From: a virus
Reading direction: 5' to 3' (one strand)
Length of the DNA stretch: 43,124 bases
IMG/VR virus record: IMGVR_UViG_3300035703_000161
Span: 1-43,124 of that record
The notes beneath the pieces were generated by a model. That model was given only the letters and a program-made list of their open reading frames with translations. It had not been told where the DNA came from and did not search any database. Shown one piece after another: positions 10,716-31,615 of this stretch. Both the position numbers and the translations under genes were made by a program. Position 1 is the stretch's first letter. Each line of letters opens with the position of its first letter.

Positions 10716-10864
10716 GGGAATACGTCAGGACCTTCGCCGATGGTGGGATCGATGTGGACGGGGTAGCAGAGGAGCATGGTCCGACGGATTGCCAGTAGTA
10801 CGTCCTCGTAGTCAACGCCAGCGGCTGCAGGCGGCTCCAGGAACGACCGATCAAACCGCCTCAC
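10628..10864 (-). CDS. Small unknown protein overlapping the HNH gene
   Basis: A 78-codon frame beginning at GTG 10864, which overlaps the preceding stop (GTGA). The non-overlapping part reads MRRFDRSFLEPPAAAGVDYEDVLLAIRRTMLL, a plausible soluble helix. The last 29 codons run inside the HNH gene in another frame. The start-stop coupling favours a real gene; the long overlap argues against it. No family recognised. Confidence 0.42.
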   Translation of the reverse strand: MRRFDRSFLEPPAAAGVDYEDVLLAIRRTMLLCYPVHIDPTIGEGPDVFPCPSPRPAGAPDAEQRTRGDAQISSQGQT

Positions 10865-11076
10865 CGCCGATAGCCCGCGCAAACGTCCATCCGGTGCTCG
10901 TAGTACGAACTAACCGAAGCCTTCACCCGGCGCACCGTGTGATTGCCTTCCGCATCCAATCGGCCCCGCTCAGACTTCAGAATCGTGCGGACTTGCTGGA
11001 TGGGCTTGATGAGCTTCCAGGCTTTCAGTTTGCCGTTTGCCATCCGCACCGGCTGCAGCGCCTTGTACGCCAGCAT
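10861..11076 (-). CDS. First gene of the late transcript, unknown small basic protein
   Basis: A 71-residue basic protein (MLAYKALQPVRMANGKLKAWKLIKPIQQV...). ATG 11076 is chosen because the longer frame upstream (to 11343) runs through a promoter and a terminator hairpin. A perfect inverted repeat CGTCAG-N3-CTGACG (11077-11091) abuts the ATG and could hide the ribosome site. It might be a late regulator or terminase accessory; no family recognised. Confidence 0.5.
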   Translation of the reverse strand: MLAYKALQPVRMANGKLKAWKLIKPIQQVRTILKSERGRLDAEGNHTVRRVKASVSSYYEHRMDVCAGYRR

Positions 11077-11104
11077 CGTCAGGATCTGACGTTCCGTGGC
11101 CCGC

Positions 11105-11163
11105 AAAAAAAGAGGGCCGTCTTTCCGTCGAACCTCGAAAACAGGTTCAGCAAGAAAGACGGC
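11105..11163 (-). terminator. Leader terminator or attenuator before the late genes
   Basis: A nested hairpin read on the minus strand. The outer arms GCCGTCTTTC/GAAAGACGGC (11116-11125 with 11154-11163) enclose an inner GAACC/GGTTC stem. CCTC and a T7 run (11111-11105) follow. It lies about 190 nt after the predicted late start site and before the first late gene. It would stop transcription unless an antitermination mechanism acts. Confidence 0.65.
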
Positions 11164-11303
11164 ATGCAAATCGGAGAGGAGAACCGATGAAGACAAGAAA
11201 GCCCTCGGAGTTGAACGGCCCGTACTGCGTCGCCGTTCGGGTGCTGGACTCTTTTGCGCTGTCCCAGGCAAGCGGTAGCGTTGGATAAACTCTACAGGGG
11301 CAG

Positions 11304-11331
11304 GATATACCATCGGTTGTGGTGGTGTCAA
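11304..11331 (-). promoter_or_regulatory. Predicted late promoter
   Basis: On the minus strand TTGACA (11331-11326, perfect -35) is separated by 16 bases from TATATC (11309-11304). The predicted start is near 11297, reading towards HNH, terminase and all structural genes. It is the closest match to a sigma70 promoter in front of the late block. Confidence 0.6.
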
Positions 11332-11377
11332 CAGAAAACACAATATGTTTTGGTCGACACGCCCATGGCAGGATTCA

Positions 11378-13651: not shown

Positions 13652-15233
13652 GGGCGTCGCCGCCTGAGAAGTCAGATTCGGTTCGATCAGGCGACGTACA
13701 CCATCCGCAGGGCGGGTGCCCCATGTGGCAAGTACAGGATTGCGGCTCGAACTGCCGGTTCCACGCCGCCCACCGATCCGCATACTCCTGAATCAGTCCC
13801 GCATTCTGCTCATTCCACTCCTTCCGCCACCCCGACTCCGGTCGCTGCTTGAAGATCCCCTCGTACTTCACGAACGCATACCCCTTCGAGAACGGCGAAC
13901 CGTCTTTCTTGCGCTCGGTGTGTTGGTCGCGGAGTAGCTGGAAGTACTTCCGCCTCCGCTGCGCCTCGGTGTACTCACGGATCCGCTTTTCGGTGACCTC
14001 TTCCAGCACGCCGTTGTAAACCTTCAGTTGCTTCTGCTTGGCGCGAACGGCGAACACATACCCGCACTTGCACACGTCGTCCTGTAGCTCCGCCACCTCG
14101 CCGCAGTCCGGGCATACCTTGAACGTCTCCGCATACGAAACCTGTTTGCCCCGCTTCCGCGTCGAGTCGTCCAACAACTGCCAGTTCTGTTCAGCAGTGA
14201 CTAGCCCGTGTTCCATAGTGCAGTTGCCGTGGTCCAGTATCAGGCAATCCGTCTTGCCGGGGGCCGTGCGCAATCCGCGGCCCGCCATCTGGAGATATAG
14301 GCCCTTGCTCTTCGTGGGCCGCGCCAGGACGACGGCAGACACCACGGGCACGTCTACGCCTTCGGTCAACACCATTGCGTTGCTGACGACCGTCAGGCGT
14401 CTATCGGCGAGGCGTTGCAGGATGGATTCCCGTTCTTGTTTCGGCGTCTCCCCGTCCAAATGCGCGGCGCGGATTCCAGCCGCCAGGAACGCCTCCACGA
14501 TGGTCCTGGAGTGCTTCACGCCCGCAGCGAATACCATTGTCGGCCGTCCGTTCGCCAGTCGCAGCCACTCGGTCACCGCATCGCCCACGAGGTGCGGTTT
14601 GTTCACCGCATCGGCGAGTTCGTCGCGGTCGTAGTCGTTGCCAGCTATCCGGACGCCATGAAGGTCGATGCGGCGACCAGCGAAGGAACGGGGCGGAACG
14701 AGGTGCCCCTGCTGGATCAGCTCCGCGATGGGCGGGCACTGCACCATTACGTCAAACATCGACGCGAGGCCTTTTCCGTCGCCGCGGATCGGCGTAGCGG
14801 TTAGGCCGATCTGGTATGGATTACCAGCGTTCCGGATGACTTCCTGATAGCTGTTCGCCGTCGCCCTGTGCGCCTCGTCGATCATGATGAGCGACGGCGC
14901 AACGTCGAAGTCCCGGTTCATGAGAGTCTGCACCGATGCCACCTGCACGAGCTCATGCGGCCGGTCGCGCCAGTGCTGCCCCATCACGACGCCGTGACGG
15001 ATGCCGAACTGGTCGAGGCGGGTAGAGGCCTGAGTCACTAACTCCGATCGGTGTGCTAAAAACCAAACCCTTCTACCTTTCGACACTGCGCTGGCAATGA
15101 TACTTGCGGAAATTGTGGTTTTCCCAGCGCCCGTGGGGGCAACTAGGAGAACCCTTCTTGCTCCGTCAGAAAACGCTACCCGAACCTGCTCTATGGCTGC
15201 TTGCTGATATGGCCGCAATTGTTGTCCGCTCAT
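13644..15233 (-). CDS. DEAH-box superfamily 2 helicase
   Basis: A 529-residue helicase with motif I APTGAGKTT (32-40), motif II DEAH (119-122), motif III TATP (145-148) and motif VI MAGRGLR. A four-cysteine zinc knuckle (CPDC...CKC, about 385-400) lies in the C-terminal region. The far C-terminus carries more cysteines (CTCHMGHPPCGWC). Similar helicases sit in phage replication modules, probably for recombination-dependent replication or fork remodelling. The start ATG overlaps the GIY-YIG stop by four bases. Confidence 0.92.
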   Translation of the reverse strand: MSGQQLRPYQQAAIEQVRVAFSDGARRVLLVAPTGAGKTTISASIIASAVSKGRRVWFLAHRSELVTQASTRLDQFGIRHGVVMGQHWRDRPHELVQVASVQTLMNRDFDVAPSLIMIDEAHRATANSYQEVIRNAGNPYQIGLTATPIRGDGKGLASMFDVMVQCPPIAELIQQGHLVPPRSFAGRRIDLHGVRIAGNDYDRDELADAVNKPHLVGDAVTEWLRLANGRPTMVFAAGVKHSRTIVEAFLAAGIRAAHLDGETPKQERESILQRLADRRLTVVSNAMVLTEGVDVPVVSAVVLARPTKSKGLYLQMAGRGLRTAPGKTDCLILDHGNCTMEHGLVTAEQNWQLLDDSTRKRGKQVSYAETFKVCPDCGEVAELQDDVCKCGYVFAVRAKQKQLKVYNGVLEEVTEKRIREYTEAQRRRKYFQLLRDQHTERKKDGSPFSKGYAFVKYEGIFKQRPESGWRKEWNEQNAGLIQEYADRWAAWNRQFEPQSCTCHMGHPPCGWCTSPDRTESDFSGGDAHV

Positions 15234-17543: not shown

Positions 17544-17887
17544 GGTTTGCTCCGTGCCGCGTCGATGGCGGCGTTGCGGGTCTTGCCGTGGTGGTAGCGC
17601 CTGCGCCACGGTTGGGCATCGCAGGAGATCACCATCCACCGGGACTGACTGCCGATGTAGGTCACGTCTACCTTCCTCTCCTCGCACCACGCCTCCCGCT
17701 CCAGGGCGTCGGCGGCGGCGGTGACGTCAGAGGCATATCCGTCTAGCTCTTCAACGTACAGACGAAGGGCGTGGCCGTTGCGGACGGACGAAGCATCATC
17801 TCTGTTCAGGTCCGCATCATGCTTAAATTTCCCCGCCATCTGTCTCAGCCGCGCCACCTGGGCGGCGGTGTCTGGGTTATTCGGCAT
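17540..17887 (-). CDS. Mosaic accessory protein, MPNN-type N-terminus
   Basis: A 115-residue protein. The N-terminus MPNN...ARLRQMA is shared with the 90-residue gene at 24831-25103. The C-terminal part WCEERKVDVTYIGSQSRWMV...AAIDAA is shared with the 82-residue gene at 26313-26561. It therefore combines two modules found separately elsewhere in this genome. It resembles Ea22-like phage accessory proteins. The start overlaps the helicase-methylase stop by 11 bases. Confidence 0.72.
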   Translation of the reverse strand: MPNNPDTAAQVARLRQMAGKFKHDADLNRDDASSVRNGHALRLYVEELDGYASDVTAAADALEREAWCEERKVDVTYIGSQSRWMVISCDAQPWRRRYHHGKTRNAAIDAARSKP

Positions 17888-20222
17888 AGCACGCCTCCTC
17901 TGCAAACATTTCACCTTGCCCCGAACCGTCCATCTCGGCTTGCCGAAGATTCTTGCACGCCAGTTCAAAGTACGTCGGCTTCAACTCGGTGCCGATGAAT
18001 CGCCGTCCTTCTTTCAGTGAAACGTAGCCCTCGCTGCCGATCCCCATGAACGGGGATAACACAAGATCGCTAGGGTTCGACCATAACCGGACGCCACGCT
18101 CGATCACGTCAAGTTGCAGTGGGCAAATATGCCGCTCGTCGTTCTGCTCTTTCGCCCCATCGCGGTTGAGCGTCTTCGATTGCTGGATGTCCATCCAAAC
18201 AGGAGAAGCGTACCGCTGCCACAGATCGACCGGAAACGACTCATACGTTTTGGTCACAGGCTGAGGGTTCGCCCCCGGCTTCCGCATCGTGACGAGGTAA
18301 TCCGGGATCCCCTGTCTGCTCATCGCTGAGTCTTTGCGGAGTTGCTTGTACAGCAGGCCGATTGCCTTGGTTCGCTGCATTGCCGTTACCGGGTCTTTCC
18401 AGATGCAAACCTCGGAGTGAAATATGAACCCGCAATCCTCAAACCAGCGGATCATTTGCCCGCGAAAGTCCCTAATGCCAATGAATCCATCCCTTTCCTT
18501 CGAAAAAGGCAGGTTCATGCAGTGGAACGATAGAAGCCTTCCCGGCATAAGCACCCTGTACAGTTGCGGGATCAGGAACTTGAAGTGCCGCTCGAACTCC
18601 GCGTAATTCTTGCAGTTTCCCATGTCGCGGTCGCTGTTGCTGTAGGTGTACAGCGAGGCGAAGGGCGGCGAGAAGATCGAATACCCCACGCTGCTGTCCG
18701 GCATCCGGGAGACGTGCTCGACGCAATCACCCAGTAACGCCGTCCACGACTTCCCACGCCGCTCATCTTCCGCGTATTCCGCCTTCTGGATCGCGCTAGA
18801 GAATACCTCTTTCCGCATCTCATCCTTCATGTACTCGACCATCGCTTCCATCATTCGCTCTGAATCGCTCTCTTTCCGTTGAATGTTCCGAACTACAGCG
18901 CCCTCGATGTCAGCGGTGATGACATAGACATCGACAGGGCTCTTTTGACCAAACCGCCAGCACCGGCGGACGGCTTGGTAGTACTGCTCGAACGAATCCG
19001 ACAGGCCAACGAATGCGATCTTGTGGCAGAACTGAAGGTTCAACCCGAACCCTGCAATCTCCGGCTTCGTCACCAGGACACGAGCCTCGCCGTTGATGAA
19101 CTTCAGAAGGTTAGCCTCCTTTTGTTCTTCTGACTGCGATCCCGTCACCTCGATTGCGCCGCCGATGGCAGCGGCCAGCTTCGAGCTTTCCTCGTTGCGT
19201 CCGCACCAGACTACCCACTGATCCTGATCGCCATTGGCATACTTGGCGCATTCTGTAACACGCTGGTCGATAGTCAGCTTCCGCGCCTGCTGCCGCTCTT
19301 GCAGGGACTCGGCTTCAATCTGAAACAGCCTGCCATCCTGAACCACTCCGCTTTCCACCGCCACCTGATTAATGTTGAGCGGCGGAAGAGAGTAAGGCCC
19401 GTCATCAAAACCCAAGTCAGAAGGCTTTCGGATGGCGACAGCCCACGAGCATACCCACTTCCAGAACACCGGCTCCGCGTGACGCTTCAGCCGCCACTTC
19501 GACGTGTCAGCCCCGTCGTGAGTAAAGAACATGGCCAGCATCTCGGCGCACGTCATCACGCCTAGATACTCGGCATGGTTGCCGAGCTCCATGTAATCGT
19601 TCGGCGCGGGCGTGGCCGACGCGCAAAGGCGATACGGGATAACGGACGAGAACTCCGTCACTGCCTTTCGGAACTTGCCGTCGAATCCTTTGAGAATGCT
19701 GGACTCGTCCAGGACGATGCCCGCGTAATCGTTCGGATTAAACCGATGCAGTTTCTCGTAGTTTGTGACCTGAATTGCGTCATCGGTCGGTCCATGTACG
19801 TGCGCGACGCCCCCGATGCCAAACTTCTCTGCTTCGTTCTTGGTCTGCGCCCCCACTACCAGCGGAGCCAGCATGAGAACCTTGCCCGCCTTAGCGGAAA
19901 CATGCCGCGCCCATTCCAACTCCATGAACGTCTTGCCCATGCCAGTGCCAGCGAATATCGCGCTTCGGCCTCGACGGACGGACCACTTTGTTATCACCGG
20001 CTGATGCAAGTGCATCCGCGGGTTGATGTCATCGACGTGGAACCCGGCGACGGGCGCGGCGACGTGCTTACTGCCGATGTATTCTCTGTAGTTGTTTTCC
20101 ATCTCCCTCTCCATAAGAAACTCCTCTGCGAACCAGTCATGACACCCCAACCATGCGCCGGGGTCGGGGTAGAGCGCCGCGCAGCGGAGCTGCTCAGCGC
20201 GGGCGTGGGTTATGGTGGGCAT
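17877..20222 (-). CDS. Helicase-DNA methyltransferase fusion
   Basis: A 781-residue fusion. The N-terminal half is a SNF2-like SF2 ATPase: Walker A GTGMGKT (92-98), motif II DESS (172-175), SATP (202-205) and motif VI QAVRRCWRFGQ (416-426). Residues about 490-765 form an amino-methyltransferase of permuted (beta) order. The catalytic SPPF (518-521) comes before the AdoMet-binding SPFMGIGSEG (723-732). SPP(F/Y) favours N4-cytosine or N6-adenine modification. The ATPase could move the methylase along phage DNA, shielding it from host restriction. It overlaps the C5 methylase gene by 29 bases. Confidence 0.92.
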   Translation of the reverse strand: MPTITHARAEQLRCAALYPDPGAWLGCHDWFAEEFLMEREMENNYREYIGSKHVAAPVAGFHVDDINPRMHLHQPVITKWSVRRGRSAIFAGTGMGKTFMELEWARHVSAKAGKVLMLAPLVVGAQTKNEAEKFGIGGVAHVHGPTDDAIQVTNYEKLHRFNPNDYAGIVLDESSILKGFDGKFRKAVTEFSSVIPYRLCASATPAPNDYMELGNHAEYLGVMTCAEMLAMFFTHDGADTSKWRLKRHAEPVFWKWVCSWAVAIRKPSDLGFDDGPYSLPPLNINQVAVESGVVQDGRLFQIEAESLQERQQARKLTIDQRVTECAKYANGDQDQWVVWCGRNEESSKLAAAIGGAIEVTGSQSEEQKEANLLKFINGEARVLVTKPEIAGFGLNLQFCHKIAFVGLSDSFEQYYQAVRRCWRFGQKSPVDVYVITADIEGAVVRNIQRKESDSERMMEAMVEYMKDEMRKEVFSSAIQKAEYAEDERRGKSWTALLGDCVEHVSRMPDSSVGYSIFSPPFASLYTYSNSDRDMGNCKNYAEFERHFKFLIPQLYRVLMPGRLLSFHCMNLPFSKERDGFIGIRDFRGQMIRWFEDCGFIFHSEVCIWKDPVTAMQRTKAIGLLYKQLRKDSAMSRQGIPDYLVTMRKPGANPQPVTKTYESFPVDLWQRYASPVWMDIQQSKTLNRDGAKEQNDERHICPLQLDVIERGVRLWSNPSDLVLSPFMGIGSEGYVSLKEGRRFIGTELKPTYFELACKNLRQAEMDGSGQGEMFAEEACYAE

Positions 20223-20856
20223 AGGCCTCCTTGATGCGCCGGCCGATCCAAAACATCACAGGTCTCGCCATTGAGTTGCCCAAGGCTTTGTATCTCGGCC
20301 CATCCGCGGCGCCGGGGATGTTGGTGTAGTTGTCAGGGAATCCCTGAAGGCGCTCGCATTCGACGGGCGTTAGGCGGCGGACGGCCATGTGGGCAACCGC
20401 TTGAACCTTCTGCCGCGCTTCGATGGTATACGCAACGTCAGCCTGCACCCCGACCCCATCCGGCCCAGACTCAGGATTTTCTCTGGTCGCACCGGCCTGG
20501 ATGCTGTACGCAACGGCGCCGACTCCAATCCCGCCACGGCCACCATTTGGCGTCAGCAGCGCGTTTGCCGTCCCGTCGGCTCTGGCCTCAAGGTCGGTGC
20601 TGTCACCGCAATCGCATTGAAAGTAGCCTAGGTCTTCACGCTCGTTCAATACTGGCACCAACGGCGTCCCCCGTCCCGTCCCGTCCTCGGAAGCGTCAAA
20701 GCCATCGGCGCGGAGGGCGTGGGCGATGCCAGGGACGCTATTCGTATCCAAGGTTCTAAAAGGCTTGTTCGCGTAGTGCCAGCCAACATTTCCTCCGGTG
20801 CCTTGGTTGCCCAGCTCCAACCCCACAATGAACGTCTCACTCTCCGCGTCTATCCT
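20194..20856 (-). CDS. C5-cytosine methyltransferase, C-terminal part (other frame)
   Basis: The frame continuing the Dcm-like enzyme after the G9 tract, from codon AGG at 20856 (RIDAESETFIVG). It contains target-recognition material ('ADGFDASEDGTGRGTPLVPV', common in phage Dcm enzymes), motif IX region 'RRLTPVECERLQGFPDNYT' and motif X 'YKALGNSMARPV'. It has no start of its own near the tract. An 8-base tract would join it to the N-terminal part as one 470-residue protein. Confidence 0.85.
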   Translation of the reverse strand, partial: RIDAESETFIVGLELGNQGTGGNVGWHYANKPFRTLDTNSVPGIAHALRADGFDASEDGTGRGTPLVPVLNEREDLGYFQCDCGDSTDLEARADGTANALLTPNGGRGGIGVGAVAYSIQAGATRENPESGPDGVGVQADVAYTIEARQKVQAVAHMAVRRLTPVECERLQGFPDNYTNIPGAADGPRYKALGNSMARPVMFWIGRRIKEAYAHHNPRPR

Positions 20857-21607
20857 GCCCCCCCCCGCCTTTGGCGTTGAGGCACATGGCAACAACCGGA
20901 TCTTGCCCGCGGGTGTCGCCCCCATGCTCGACTCCCTGGCCACTACTTGTAAGGCTTGGCGCAACTGGATGGGCAACTCCTTCCCCCGCCGTTCTGCTCG
21001 GCGGAGAATCCCGGCGCAAGCCTTCCCACTCAAGAAGTATTTCGGCGGGATGGGGCCGGTCTCCAGAATTTGCGACAACGAACACACGCTTGCGTCGTTG
21101 GGCCAAGCCGAAGTATTGGGCATCCAGGATTCGCCACGCTGCTCTCCTGTCGGGTCCATCGACCACGCCCGAACTCGGCCATCCTTGCTCAAATACGATG
21201 GGCTCATCACTGCCGACAAGCGCACCCAGGAAGCAGCCAAAGGCGTTGTCACTCGTTGAAAGAACTCCGGGCACGTTCTCCCAGACAACGGTATGGGGTC
21301 GAATAATGTTGATTGCACGAACGAACTCCAGGGTGAGATTGCCTCGCTCATCGGCGAGGGAGTTGCGAAGGCCAGCGACGGAAAACGCTTGGCATGGCGT
21401 GCCCCCGACGCAAATATCGACGTTGCCGATATAGGGGGTCCAGTCGGCCTTGGTGAAGTCGCCAAGGTTAGGCACATCGGGGTAGTGATGCGCCAAGACG
21501 CGGGACGGGAAACGGTCGATTTCACAGAAGGCGACGGGTTGCCAGTTGAGTGGATGCCACGCGGCCGTAGCGGCTTCTATTCCCGAGCAGAACGAAAGGT
21601 ATCTCAT
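20837..21607 (-). CDS. C5-cytosine methyltransferase, N-terminal part, frame broken at a G9 tract
   Basis: Dcm-family DNA methylase. Motif I is FCSGIEAATAAW, motif IV is GGTPCQAFSVAG with catalytic Cys72, motif VI is ENV (110-112) and motif VIII is QRRKRVF. The frame enters a run of nine G (minus strand, 20866-20858) and ends 20 bases later after KGGGGQDRRGE. The expected continuation lies one base out of register. Start is ATG 21607, overlapping the zinc-protein stop (ATGA). It is either phase-variable, a recent loss, or a homopolymer count error. Confidence 0.88.
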   Translation of the reverse strand: MRYLSFCSGIEAATAAWHPLNWQPVAFCEIDRFPSRVLAHHYPDVPNLGDFTKADWTPYIGNVDICVGGTPCQAFSVAGLRNSLADERGNLTLEFVRAINIIRPHTVVWENVPGVLSTSDNAFGCFLGALVGSDEPIVFEQGWPSSGVVDGPDRRAAWRILDAQYFGLAQRRKRVFVVANSGDRPHPAEILLEWEGLRRDSPPSRTAGEGVAHPVAPSLTSSGQGVEHGGDTRGQDPVVAMCLNAKGGGGQDRRGE

Positions 21608-22125
21608 CGCCCCCACCCATGCACCGCCGGAATCCGCGTGACCTCATGCCCCCGCACATCCACCGGCTCCACCCGCTCGATCGCCTCAGGGCCGATGACC
21701 ACCGGCACATTCGGCACCGGCACGCGGCGAATGGTGGGCTTGGCGACACGAAGCGCGGGACCCTTTACGGGCTTTACTGCCACCGGCTTTACCGCAGCAT
21801 TGCGCTCCGGCTTCTCCGGCCGCTCGACGCCGAATCGGAACTGATGCGGCATGGTCCCGCGCTGGGCGCGCCGATTGTTCCGCTCCCTTGCTCGGTAGCA
21901 GTCGGAGCAGAGGGCTAATTCACAATTCATATCGCGCGGCTTCCCGCACGCCGGGGTACGGCACACGGTGGCCTTGCCGCGCTTCGGGACACCGGCCTCG
22001 CGGCGGGCCTGGTCGGCCTTGGCCGTGGCGTAGGCGTTGTAGCAGGTGCGGCAGAGGGCCAAGTCACATTTCGGGTCGCGTGGGGCTTGGCAGACGCGGC
22101 AGTGGGTCTGGTATTTACGTGGCAC
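21604..22125 (-). CDS. Protein with duplicated C4 zinc motifs and a proline/valine-rich tail
   Basis: A 173-residue protein starting at GTG 22125. Two copies of a cysteine motif are present: CRVCQAPRDPKCDLALCRTCY and CRTPACGKPRDMNCELALCSDCY, separated by a basic linker. They are followed by a basic, Pro/Val-rich tail (KPVAVKPVKGPALRVAKPTI). This looks like a tandem zinc finger from internal duplication. It may bind DNA next to the methylase it is coupled to, but I know no family for it. Confidence 0.7.
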   Translation of the reverse strand: MPRKYQTHCRVCQAPRDPKCDLALCRTCYNAYATAKADQARREAGVPKRGKATVCRTPACGKPRDMNCELALCSDCYRARERNNRRAQRGTMPHQFRFGVERPEKPERNAAVKPVAVKPVKGPALRVAKPTIRRVPVPNVPVVIGPEAIERVEPVDVRGHEVTRIPAVHGWGR

Positions 22126-22800: not shown

Positions 22801-23254
22801 CGGGGGCCTCCGGCGCGGGCAGCATGGGCAGGGCGTGGGTGGGGGTGCCATAGAGCCGATCACTGACCGTTCCACTTATTCGCCAACGGCCCATCATCCA
22901 GCGACACTTAAACCACTGCTCGTAGTCCGGCTCCCAAACCATCCACCAATTTCCGTCCCGATGCTTCTCCCCGATCACCTCCGGCACCGTCAGCCGTGCG
23001 GCGGCGAGGAGGGCGGGGAGGGCGTTGTAAGACAGCACAAGGCGTCGTGCCTCTGCCTCGCCGATAAAGCCAGACAAATTGAACCCGCCGCTCCCCGGCC
23101 CGTCGTAATACCCCTCGCCACCCAAGATGCCCCAGTACGTCGGGTCCTCGTCCATACCGGCTCCGCCGTTGGGCAACAGCCGGACATCTCCCGGCGTCGC
23201 GGCCTTGTGCGCCGCCTCCAGGGCGTCGAGTTCGGCGGGGGTTAGGCGGGGCAT
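22784..23254 (-). CDS. Mosaic accessory protein, MPRLTPAELDALE-type (copy 1)
   Basis: A 156-residue protein whose N-terminus MPRLTPAELDALEAAHKAAT and central NALPALLAAARLTVPEV match the 156-residue gene at 23734-24204. The C-terminal halves differ. It resembles Ea22/Ead-like phage proteins with the opening '..LDALE.A..ATPG'. The first codons lie in a 40-base exact direct repeat shared with copy 2. Confidence 0.75.
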   Translation of the reverse strand: MPRLTPAELDALEAAHKAATPGDVRLLPNGGAGMDEDPTYWGILGGEGYYDGPGSGGFNLSGFIGEAEARRLVLSYNALPALLAAARLTVPEVIGEKHRDGNWWMVWEPDYEQWFKCRWMMGRWRISGTVSDRLYGTPTHALPMLPAPEAPDATPR

Positions 23255-23259
23255 GGGGT
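23220..23259. repeat. 40-base direct repeat at an accessory gene boundary, copy 1
   Basis: Identical to 24170-24209. It covers the last codons of the upstream gene (..TPCPA-stop) and the first codons of the MPRLTPAELDAL gene. It is a natural site for homologous exchange of whole accessory genes. Confidence 0.9.
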
Positions 23260-23733
23260 GACCTCCTGAGTAGCAAGCATTTCCCATCTGATCTTGGCTT
23301 GCTGTGATATGGCGTCGAACTCGCGCAGTCGTCCTAGCTTTTCGCGATTCCAACCGCCGTGCGGCTTGACTTGCGCTATAGCCTTCCAGCCCGCACCTCT
23401 TAGTGAAGAACCGCTTTCGTCTTGGAGTGTGTAAGTGATTATCTTCCTGCCTCCCATAGCTCGCCACGCTCTCCAGCAAGCGCCATATAGAAATGAGTTC
23501 GTGTTCTTTGGTGCGTCAGGTGAGCAGCACGTCCTCAAGACTTCTGCGGTCCAACCATCGTCGAGCAGTCGAGCTATTGGACGGCCCACGATGGCAACCC
23601 CCACAAGTCCATTTGTCGCCGCTCCAATCGAGAACTTATGCCCAACGGTCGGCTTACTGTGGCGGTGGAATGTAGCGACGAAACTGTTTGCGTCAGCCAA
23701 CGTTAAAGGAATCAGAATTAGCTTTTCGTCCAT
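23242..23733 (-). CDS. XF1762-like protein (GNAT-related fold)
   Basis: A 163-residue protein with the family's successive signatures: 'ADANSFVATFHRHSKPTVGHKFS', 'GLVGVAIVGRPIARLLDDG', 'AEVLRTCCSPDAPKNTNSFLYGACWRAW' and 'IITYTLQDESGSSLRGAGWK'. Family members occur in phages and islands and resemble acyltransferases, but no substrate is known to me. It looks AT-richer than neighbouring genes and lies between the two 40-base repeats, so it is probably a recently acquired cargo gene. Confidence 0.85.
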   Translation of the reverse strand: MDEKLILIPLTLADANSFVATFHRHSKPTVGHKFSIGAATNGLVGVAIVGRPIARLLDDGWTAEVLRTCCSPDAPKNTNSFLYGACWRAWRAMGGRKIITYTLQDESGSSLRGAGWKAIAQVKPHGGWNREKLGRLREFDAISQQAKIRWEMLATQEVTPCPA

Positions 23734-30455: not shown

Positions 30456-30629
30456 TCACGCCGCTACCTCCGCCGCCTGCAACTGCGCGAGCCGCATCCG
30501 GATATATTGCGCCTGGGTAAGTTTGCACGCCGCCGCCTCCGTAGCCACCCATGCGATCTGATCCGGTTCAAGTGCGACGCAGATTCGCTTTGCGTCGTTT
30601 TGCGTCATTTCATTACGTTCTGCGTCCAT
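30456..30629 (-). CDS. Ribbon-helix-helix DNA-binding protein
   Basis: A 57-residue protein. The strand KRICVAL is followed by helix EPDQIAWVATEAAACK and helix TQAQYIRMRLAQL, the Arc/CopG ribbon-helix-helix pattern. It is probably a dimeric repressor or activator of the early genes. ATG 30629 lies where transcription should begin, so the mRNA may be leaderless, fitting the absence of a Shine-Dalgarno. A second ATG seven codons in is possible. It is the only clear transcription-factor fold in the genome. Confidence 0.75.
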   Translation of the reverse strand: MDAERNEMTQNDAKRICVALEPDQIAWVATEAAACKLTQAQYIRMRLAQLQAAEVAA

Positions 30630-30707: not shown

Positions 30708-30730
30708 AAAAACCCCGCGCTAGGCGGGGT
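30708..30730 (-). terminator. Rho-independent terminator after the first early genes
   Basis: Minus-strand hairpin ACCCCGC/GCGGGGT (30724-30730 with 30712-30718) followed by a run of T. It includes the stop codon of the zinc-ribbon gene in its loop and separates it from the regulator's promoter. Confidence 0.88.
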
Positions 30731-30926
30731 CATGCGGGCACGGGCGGCGGCGAAGGCGGGCCGATACCACAGCGCCGCACCGCGGGCACGGTGCCAGCTT
30801 GGGCGGCTTGCCTGGTGGCCGCTTGCGGCGGGCCAGTTCGGCTTCGAGGGCTTCGCGGGGGATGCGGGAGAGGTCGGGGAGTTTAGGGATAAGACTCTGT
30901 GGGCAATCGCACGCCCCGCTGCGCAA
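30720..30926 (-). CDS. Small zinc-ribbon protein
   Basis: A frame of about 68 codons ending CPRCGAVVSARLRRRPCPHD, a C4/C3H zinc-ribbon-like end, after a basic Pro-rich stretch. No ATG or GTG lies in frame. TTG 30926 or TTG 30935 are the candidate starts, and both overlap the upstream gene by 44-53 bases. The start is therefore uncertain. Confidence 0.5.
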   Translation of the reverse strand: MRSGACDCPQSLIPKLPDLSRIPREALEAELARRKRPPGKPPKLAPCPRCGAVVSARLRRRPCPHDPA

Positions 30927-31128
30927 GCATCTCAACCAACAATTCCGCGCTCATCCCGCCGCCGCAGTTAATCGCGGCAAGGCAATCGGCCGATGTGCCA
31001 CGCGGTTCATCGGTGGCGTGGGTGTAGCCGTCCGTTCCTTCCCAGAAGGTCATGTCCTGTTCGTGGGTGCATTCGTCGCTCATGATCGCAGCGATGCGCT
31101 TGATGTCTTCGGTGGTCTTGAGTATCAT
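30883..31128 (-). CDS. Unknown 81-residue protein
   Basis: MILKTTEDIKRIAAIMSDEC..., then 'TFWEGTDGYTHATDEPRG', ending VRLPTESYP. Acidic, with four cysteines. ATG 31128 has GGAG six bases upstream. Its leader lies opposite the candidate plus-strand RNA at 31135-31211, whose transcript would pair with this ribosome site. Confidence 0.68.
   Translation of the reverse strand: MILKTTEDIKRIAAIMSDECTHEQDMTFWEGTDGYTHATDEPRGTSADCLAAINCGGGMSAELLVEMLAQRGVRLPTESYP
31100..31128 (+). promoter_or_regulatory. Predicted plus-strand promoter for a small RNA
   Basis: TTGATG (31100-31105), 17-base spacer, TATCAT (31123-31128). This is the only convincing plus-strand promoter I found that is followed by a plus-strand terminator. 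Confidence 0.5.
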
Positions 31129-31134
31129 GGTTCT

Positions 31135-31211
31135 CCGGCCTCCCAGCCGGTGGATTGCAACATTTTGTTGATTGCTGTTGGACTAGGCCGGGCGGCTAGC
31201 CCGGCCTTTTT
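31135..31211 (+). ncRNA. Candidate antisense small RNA, OOP-like
   Basis: A transcript of about 77 nt from the predicted promoter would contain three elements. Stem CCGGC/GCCGG is at 31135-31139 with 31146-31150. Stem CAACA/TGTTG is at 31158-31162 with 31166-31170. The nine-base-pair terminator follows. It is antisense to the whole leader and ribosome site of the gene at 30883-31128. Size and layout recall lambda OOP RNA. No expression evidence exists here. Confidence 0.45.
31185..31211 (+). terminator. Plus-strand Rho-independent terminator
   Basis: AGGCCGGGC/GCCCGGCCT (31185-31193 with 31199-31207), five-base loop, then TTTTT. The T run follows only on the plus strand, although no plus-strand gene precedes it. 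This implies a plus-strand transcript. Confidence 0.8.
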
Positions 31212-31214
31212 CAT

Positions 31215-31484
31215 TTACGCCGCTTCGAGCAGCTTTACCGCCAATGCCGTCCAGCGCACAAGCGCTTCGCCGGTGGCCTGATCGTCGCGGCGCCCCTTCA
31301 GTATGTCGATGATGGTTCCAGCGGCCAAGGCCTGCGCCTTTGCGGTCGCGGAATCAATGCGGGCGATCAGCGCCGTGGCTTTCGGATTGTCGGCGGGGAT
31401 CATCGCCTTCCATGTCGCTACGCCTTCGGCATACTGCGCCATCAGGTCGGCTGCATATTCGATTTGCTTAACAGTGCCAGTCAT
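31215..31484 (-). CDS. First gene of the early transcript, unknown
   Basis: An 89-residue helical protein (MTGTVKQIEYAADLMAQYAE..., ending WTALAVKLLEAA). ATG 31484 has GAGGAG nine bases upstream and lies about 20 bases after the predicted early start site. First genes of early transcripts often disarm host functions, but nothing here identifies a target. Confidence 0.72.
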   Translation of the reverse strand: MTGTVKQIEYAADLMAQYAEGVATWKAMIPADNPKATALIARIDSATAKAQALAAGTIIDILKGRRDDQATGEALVRWTALAVKLLEAA

Positions 31485-31508
31485 TTGTTTGATCTCCTCT
31501 ACACCTCC

Positions 31509-31537
31509 AGAATACACATACTCCACAGTATGTGCAA
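31509..31537 (-). promoter_or_regulatory. Early promoter with embedded palindromic operator
   Basis: TTGCAC (31537-31532), 17-base spacer, TATTCT (31514-31509) on the minus strand. A perfect inverted repeat CACATAC-N6-GTATGTG (31515-31534) fills the spacer and overlaps the -35 hexamer. A repressor bound there would block RNA polymerase. Confidence 0.65.
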
Positions 31538-31559
31538 GGGAAAAACGCACGCCCCAAAT

Positions 31560-31591
31560 AAAAAAAGCCCCCGCCGGTTAGGGCAGGGGCT
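31560..31591 (-). terminator. Rho-independent terminator of the late block
   Basis: Ten-pair minus-strand hairpin (31582-31591 with 31566-31575, one wobble) followed by T7 (31566-31560). It lies 24 bases past the last late gene and just upstream of the early promoter. Confidence 0.9.
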
Positions 31592-31615
31592 TGAGTATCT
31601 ACGGCAGTGCGGGCT

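Follow-up and report, generated by a model that had tools for sequence, protein, structure and literature searches.

Why a strong intrinsic terminator should point along the plus strand of a phage whose recognised genes all lie on the minus strand is the question raised by the locus described here. The virus record, a phage from environmental DNA, is 43,124 bases long and was analysed whole (referred to below as the window). Its genes for terminase, portal and tail proteins occupy one side of the window, and those for primase, helicase, methyltransferases, RecT and YqaJ the other. The best matches of terminase and portal are distant phages, mostly of Firmicutes, while searches of bacterial genomes returned no terminase relatives and the holin query no match; the signal peptides ending in LAQ give the phage what we take to be an acidobacterial look. 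Neither an integrase nor a repressor was found among the proteins scanned, a subset of the open reading frames, and a role of the locus in lysogeny is therefore not indicated. The window also encodes a Mom-like DNA modification protein (23242-23733, PHROG 1384, E 5e-33) and holds DNA methyltransferase matches at 17877-20222 and 20837-21616. The features of the locus are collected in Table 1.

Table 1. Positions and strands of the features at the locus, in window coordinates.
Feature	Position	Strand	Basis and remarks
Terminator downstream of cassette	30711..30731	-	Terminator scan
p81, presumed target	30883..31128	-	81 aa; coding score 0.31 bits/codon, other frames all negative
Predicted antisense promoter	31100..31128	+	TTGATG 31100-31105, 17-nt spacer, TATCAT 31123-31128; in first codons of p81
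p81 ribosome-binding region	31133..31144	-	GGAG 31136-31133, GGGAGG 31144-31139; read from sequence
Predicted antisense RNA, about 75 nt	31135..31211	+	Inferred from promoter and terminator
Hairpin 1	31135..31150	+	CCGGC-CTCCCA-GCCGG; minus-strand copy of the repeat holds the p81 Shine-Dalgarno GGGAGG
Antisense intrinsic terminator	31185..31211	+	AGGCCGGGC-GGCTA-GCCCGGCCT-TTTTC; 9 pairs, -20.6 kcal/mol
p89, upstream gene on same transcript	31215..31484	-	89 aa; coding score 0.40 bits/codon
Probable cassette promoter	31509..31537	-	TTGCAC-N17-TATTCT; also in relatives with a different cassette
Terminator upstream of cassette	31565..31592	-	Terminator scan

A predicted plus-strand promoter and terminator

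An earlier note on this DNA had proposed that a plus-strand promoter, TTGATG-N17-TATCAT, and a strong plus-strand terminator behind its -10 give rise to a short antisense RNA, there being no plus-strand gene to explain the terminator. These elements are borne out by the present analysis. Indeed, the antisense terminator is the sole strong plus-oriented one in the window, it begins 56 nt after the promoter, and it is identical in the sister contigs described below; the other three strong terminators (11595-11576, 31592-31565 and 30731-30711) point along the minus strand, in the direction of the genes. The promoter matches the consensus at 9 of 12 positions, and sites with that many matches are not more numerous in the window than in shuffled DNA. 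In a weight-matrix scan with a sigma70-like model, whose consensus may differ from that of the host, the site nevertheless ranks first on the plus strand of the 43 kb and second among the 86,178 positions of both strands. The same matrix places the proven sar and oop promoters of P22 only at ranks 26 and 24 on their strand, so that the site is closer to the consensus than two proven promoters. The first-ranking promoter-like site of the window, with both strands counted, is TTGACA-N18-TATCCT at 11302-11331 on the minus strand, close to the start of the open reading frame at 10861-11343 and with a terminator at 11595-11576.

The spacing of the two elements was evaluated by a simple pair rule, namely a promoter with this score followed at 20-120 nt by a terminator. 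The window has one such pair, whereas simulation of sequence predicts 0.005 per strand; this estimate is post hoc, the site having already been singled out. Applied to Rhodobacterales loci (1.8 Mb of strand), the rule returned two pairs, both on the SorX element; since these loci were fetched for containing that element, the control speaks for a low background elsewhere more than for independent discovery. The terminator rule misses the real sar and oop terminators of P22 owing to the limits it sets on loop and tail, and is thus strict rather than complete.

The antisense -10 overlaps the ATG of p81 and the whole promoter falls within the start of the p81 coding sequence. Both hexamers are identical in the seven sister contigs but, as they lie in p81 codons, their conservation may reflect the p81 protein, and conservation of the promoter is inseparable from that of the first codons of p81. 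The placement of the hexamers in coding sequence, together with the unremarkable number of 9/12 sites, would suit a reading in which only the terminator matters: the plus-strand hairpin and T run would stop stray antisense transcription, or would have come with the cassette, and the promoter match would have arisen by chance in the p81 codons. We consider this unlikely, as graded scoring ranks the site first on its strand, its coincidence with a terminator is rare, and relatives that lack the cassette have no such terminator, which argues against a general need for one.

The predicted RNA and its presumed target

The RNA would be antisense to the gap between p89 and p81, which measures 86 nt and carries no coding signal by codon usage, both flanking genes being coding. 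p81 has no match in Pfam, PHROG, PADLOC or phages, and its structure model is too poor for use; p89 is modelled with three predicted helices (pLDDT 81), belongs to no known family and has no PDB match at E <= 0.001. Another open reading frame, p71 (30720-30935), lacks a coding signal and was rejected as a gene. The RNA is expected to begin at 31134-31138 and to end in the T run. It thus lies wholly between the p81 start at 31128 and the p89 stop at 31215-31217, ending 3 nt short of the latter, and its complementarity to the minus-strand mRNA between the two cistrons is perfect. The p81 GGGAGG is covered by the predicted RNA; GGAG is covered only if the RNA starts at or before 31133. The earlier claim that the RNA pairs with the leader and ribosome site of the next minus-strand gene therefore stands as a prediction; nothing in the analysis supports the label of that gene as an early gene. 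p81 sits in a variable cassette between lysis and recombination genes.

Collectively, the rank of the promoter, the coincidence of the pair, the non-coding gap and the retention of the element in the sister contigs make a plus-strand antisense RNA over the p81 leader and ribosome-binding region a well-supported prediction. From this arrangement we infer that the RNA is produced, pairs in vivo and represses p81. RNA polymerase would start at the promoter inside the 5' end of p81 and produce a plus-strand RNA of about 75 nt that stops at 31211, whose pairing would cover the p81 leader including GGGAGG and thereby block p81 translation. The resulting duplex would probably be a substrate for RNase III, p89 would stay translatable during the block of p81, and converging polymerases could add a measure of interference.

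The predicted RNA folds at -35.4 kcal/mol (z -2.9), and the minus strand of the same region folds too (z -3.5, better than 200 of 200 shuffles). The two further hairpins that had been described between promoter and terminator are present as inverted repeats; they are uninformative on strand, since an inverted repeat forms a hairpin on either one; the middle one is weak and not kept, being further weakened in the sister contigs by GC to AA at 31157-31158. The good minus-strand fold is the main attraction of a reading in which the hairpins work in the minus-strand mRNA, the strong stem protecting or separating the p89 message and the second one masking the p81 Shine-Dalgarno sequence, with p81 depending on preceding translation. 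In keeping with this, the p81 ribosome site lies partly inside a weak stem that includes GGGAGG, and the gap contains a mini-ORF of about 29 codons (31214-31129, minus strand) whose ATG directly follows the p89 stop and whose stop overlaps the p81 ATG. The junctions, TAAATG for p89/mini-ORF and ATGA for mini-ORF/p81, form a layout that could invite translational coupling. However, the mini-ORF was rejected as a gene, as its coding score is 0.04 bits/codon and it is interrupted by a stop in the sister contigs; the stem over the Shine-Dalgarno sequence has little stability by itself (the folded stretch gives -4.4 kcal/mol), and the one-sided T run and the promoter are left unexplained. Regulation by the mRNA hairpins alone is therefore judged quite improbable, and such hairpins would in any case be compatible with the antisense RNA rather than exclusive of it.

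Comparison with known antisense and small RNAs

A handful of model temperate phages are the source of the well-studied phage antisense RNAs, sar and OOP among them. The sar RNA of P22 is an antisense RNA encoded between arc and ant, where it blocks the ribosome site of ant (PMC7968456), and in P22-like phages it is carried inside the 'ant moron' (PMC2629481). In P22 coordinates, the end of arc is at 15022 and the start of ant at 15091; sar occupies 15021-15090, and its promoter Psar sits within ant at 15097-15125. The predicted RNA resembles sar in most of its layout: it is antisense to a gap whose flanking genes run the same way (p89 and p81, both coding on the minus strand), its promoter lies in the 5' end of the downstream gene, its intrinsic terminator lies at the end of the upstream gene, 3 nt before the p89 stop, and it covers the ribosome-binding region of the downstream gene. 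An RNA of about 70-75 nt in a moron of the late region is a further likeness (PMC2629481, PMC7968456, PMC12197685). The two differ in their genes, as p81 is an 81-aa orphan that matches no family and does not qualify as an antirepressor like Ant, and p89 is an 89-aa helical orphan that is not known to be a repressor. The gap is also longer (86 nt here, 68 nt in P22), and the likeness that emerges is one of layout. The predicted RNA is thus classed as sar-like in design and not as a homologue of sar, and the explanation that we favour as probable is a gene for a cis-encoded antisense RNA of the P22 sar type, housed in a moron-like cassette.

The comparison originally offered was with OOP of lambda, a 77-nt RNA (PMC12197685) that overlaps 52 bases of the C-terminal coding region of cII (PMC5869508). 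Both are short antisense RNAs that start from a promoter close to the beginning of the downstream gene and end at an intrinsic terminator; OOP, however, enters the coding end of cII, whereas the predicted RNA ends at 31211, short of the p89 stop, and has no overlap with the p89 coding end. OOP was thus rejected as the closest analogue on geometry, and the position of the RNA wholly between two genes makes sar the stronger comparison. Another arrangement of this kind is that of CopA and tap-repA of plasmid R1, in which an antisense RNA lies over a leader with a possible mini-ORF coupling to the regulated gene. Here, the mini-ORF has neither coding signal nor conservation, and p81 has no known identity as a replication protein.

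The 3' part of the element also calls to mind SorX of Rhodobacterales. At the gathering threshold no Rfam family matches the window, and up to E = 1 the sole match is SorX (RF02784), over the full model at 31141-31212 on the plus strand, scoring 31.2 bits, below the gathering cut-off of 46.6, with E 9e-4 for the whole window. The shared part is CTGTTGGAC placed two bases ahead of the same terminator stem, or CUGUUGGAC two bases before a GGCCGGGC terminator. The CCUCC directly before CUGUUGGAC is missing, and the window has GATTG in its place; in a comparison of 117 rows, the window itself included, CCTCC directly precedes the motif in all bacterial copies with enough upstream sequence. A search of 257 billion bases of genomes for CTGTTGGAC, two bases and the terminator gave 115 stretches, by title nearly all from Rhodobacterales, and terminators alone reach up to 26 bits to other small RNA models. 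SorX itself is cut from an mRNA 3' UTR (PMC8625941).

With its score below the cut-off and CCUCC missing, membership of the SorX family was rejected, and the match is taken as a resemblance, perhaps due to chance. As the window's sole sub-threshold hit, it falls on a small RNA model, on the plus strand and across the element, which counts in favour of the predicted RNA. A trans-acting small RNA akin to SorX or imitating it, and acting on host mRNAs, would account for the full-model match and for a pattern nearly confined to one order. Against this stand the low score, the loss of CCTCC, the bits that terminators reach by themselves, and the failure to find any relative of the phage YqaJ exonuclease among 198 genomes from the order to which one Rhodobacterales locus belongs, and we regard such a role as very unlikely. 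Just as little probability is given to a combined function, by which one RNA would silence the cargo in cis and enter the host small RNA machinery in trans through its host-type 3' end (CUGUUGGAC plus terminator). Apart from the locus itself, the genome stretches with this pattern (L031-L145, about 115) form a broad SorX-like set with CCTCCCTGTTGGAC-NN-GGCCGGGC-N5-GCCCGGCC-TTTTT, often behind a hairpin of the CGGGGTTATG type.

A variable cassette and its relatives

The sar-like element belongs to a variable cassette that separates lysis from recombination genes. Outside the window, p81 and p89 occur only in seven sister contigs, with the element between them; these contigs have one distinct sequence in the region, so that only two distinct sequences of the element are available (window and sister). 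They differ at four positions over 171 nt (31087, 31114 in the promoter spacer, 31157 and 31158), and the flanks of the sister contigs differ from the window by about 5-7%. No wider relatives of p81 or p89 were found in annotated phages. Five further contigs (L018-L020, L024 and L025) have the flanks and the palindromic promoter region in common with the window and enclose different small genes; two relatives (L023 and L026) are without the cassette. At the cassette site of the four relatives scanned (L019, L025, L026 and L023), there is neither an antisense terminator nor a promoter-like site. The element is thus absent from relatives with no cassette or a different one, which indicates a cassette-bound unit of the moron type. 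Promoter and hairpin are either both present or both missing, and no relative showed the loss of the promoter with retention of the hairpin that the earlier note had named as evidence against its proposal.

If this reading is true, a sar-type unit resides in the swappable cassette of an uncultivated phage with no recognised repressor or integrase among the proteins scanned, which would suggest that moron cargo can bring its own antisense lock along. Being simple, the pair rule could be applied to viral contigs at large to find more cases, and enough divergent copies for covariation.

Some further observations concern the borders of the cassette and its neighbourhood. Downstream, p57 (30456-30629) encodes a 57-aa protein with a ribbon-helix-helix (Arc/CopG) look by eye and 41-86% identity in relatives; it has no match in Pfam and none of relevance in the PDB, so that an Arc-like identity is without support from solved structures. 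Between the -35 and -10 of the probable cassette promoter lies a perfect palindrome, CACATACT-N4-AGTATGTG (31515-31534), present in a single copy in the window, which looks like an operator. The site as a whole is a hypervariable place for small genes (30711-31592 in the window, 3656-4747 in L019 and 1998-2100 in L023). In L023, p200 precedes a pair of near-identical terminators spaced 64 nt apart, and near-identical copies of border terminators could serve as recombination sites.
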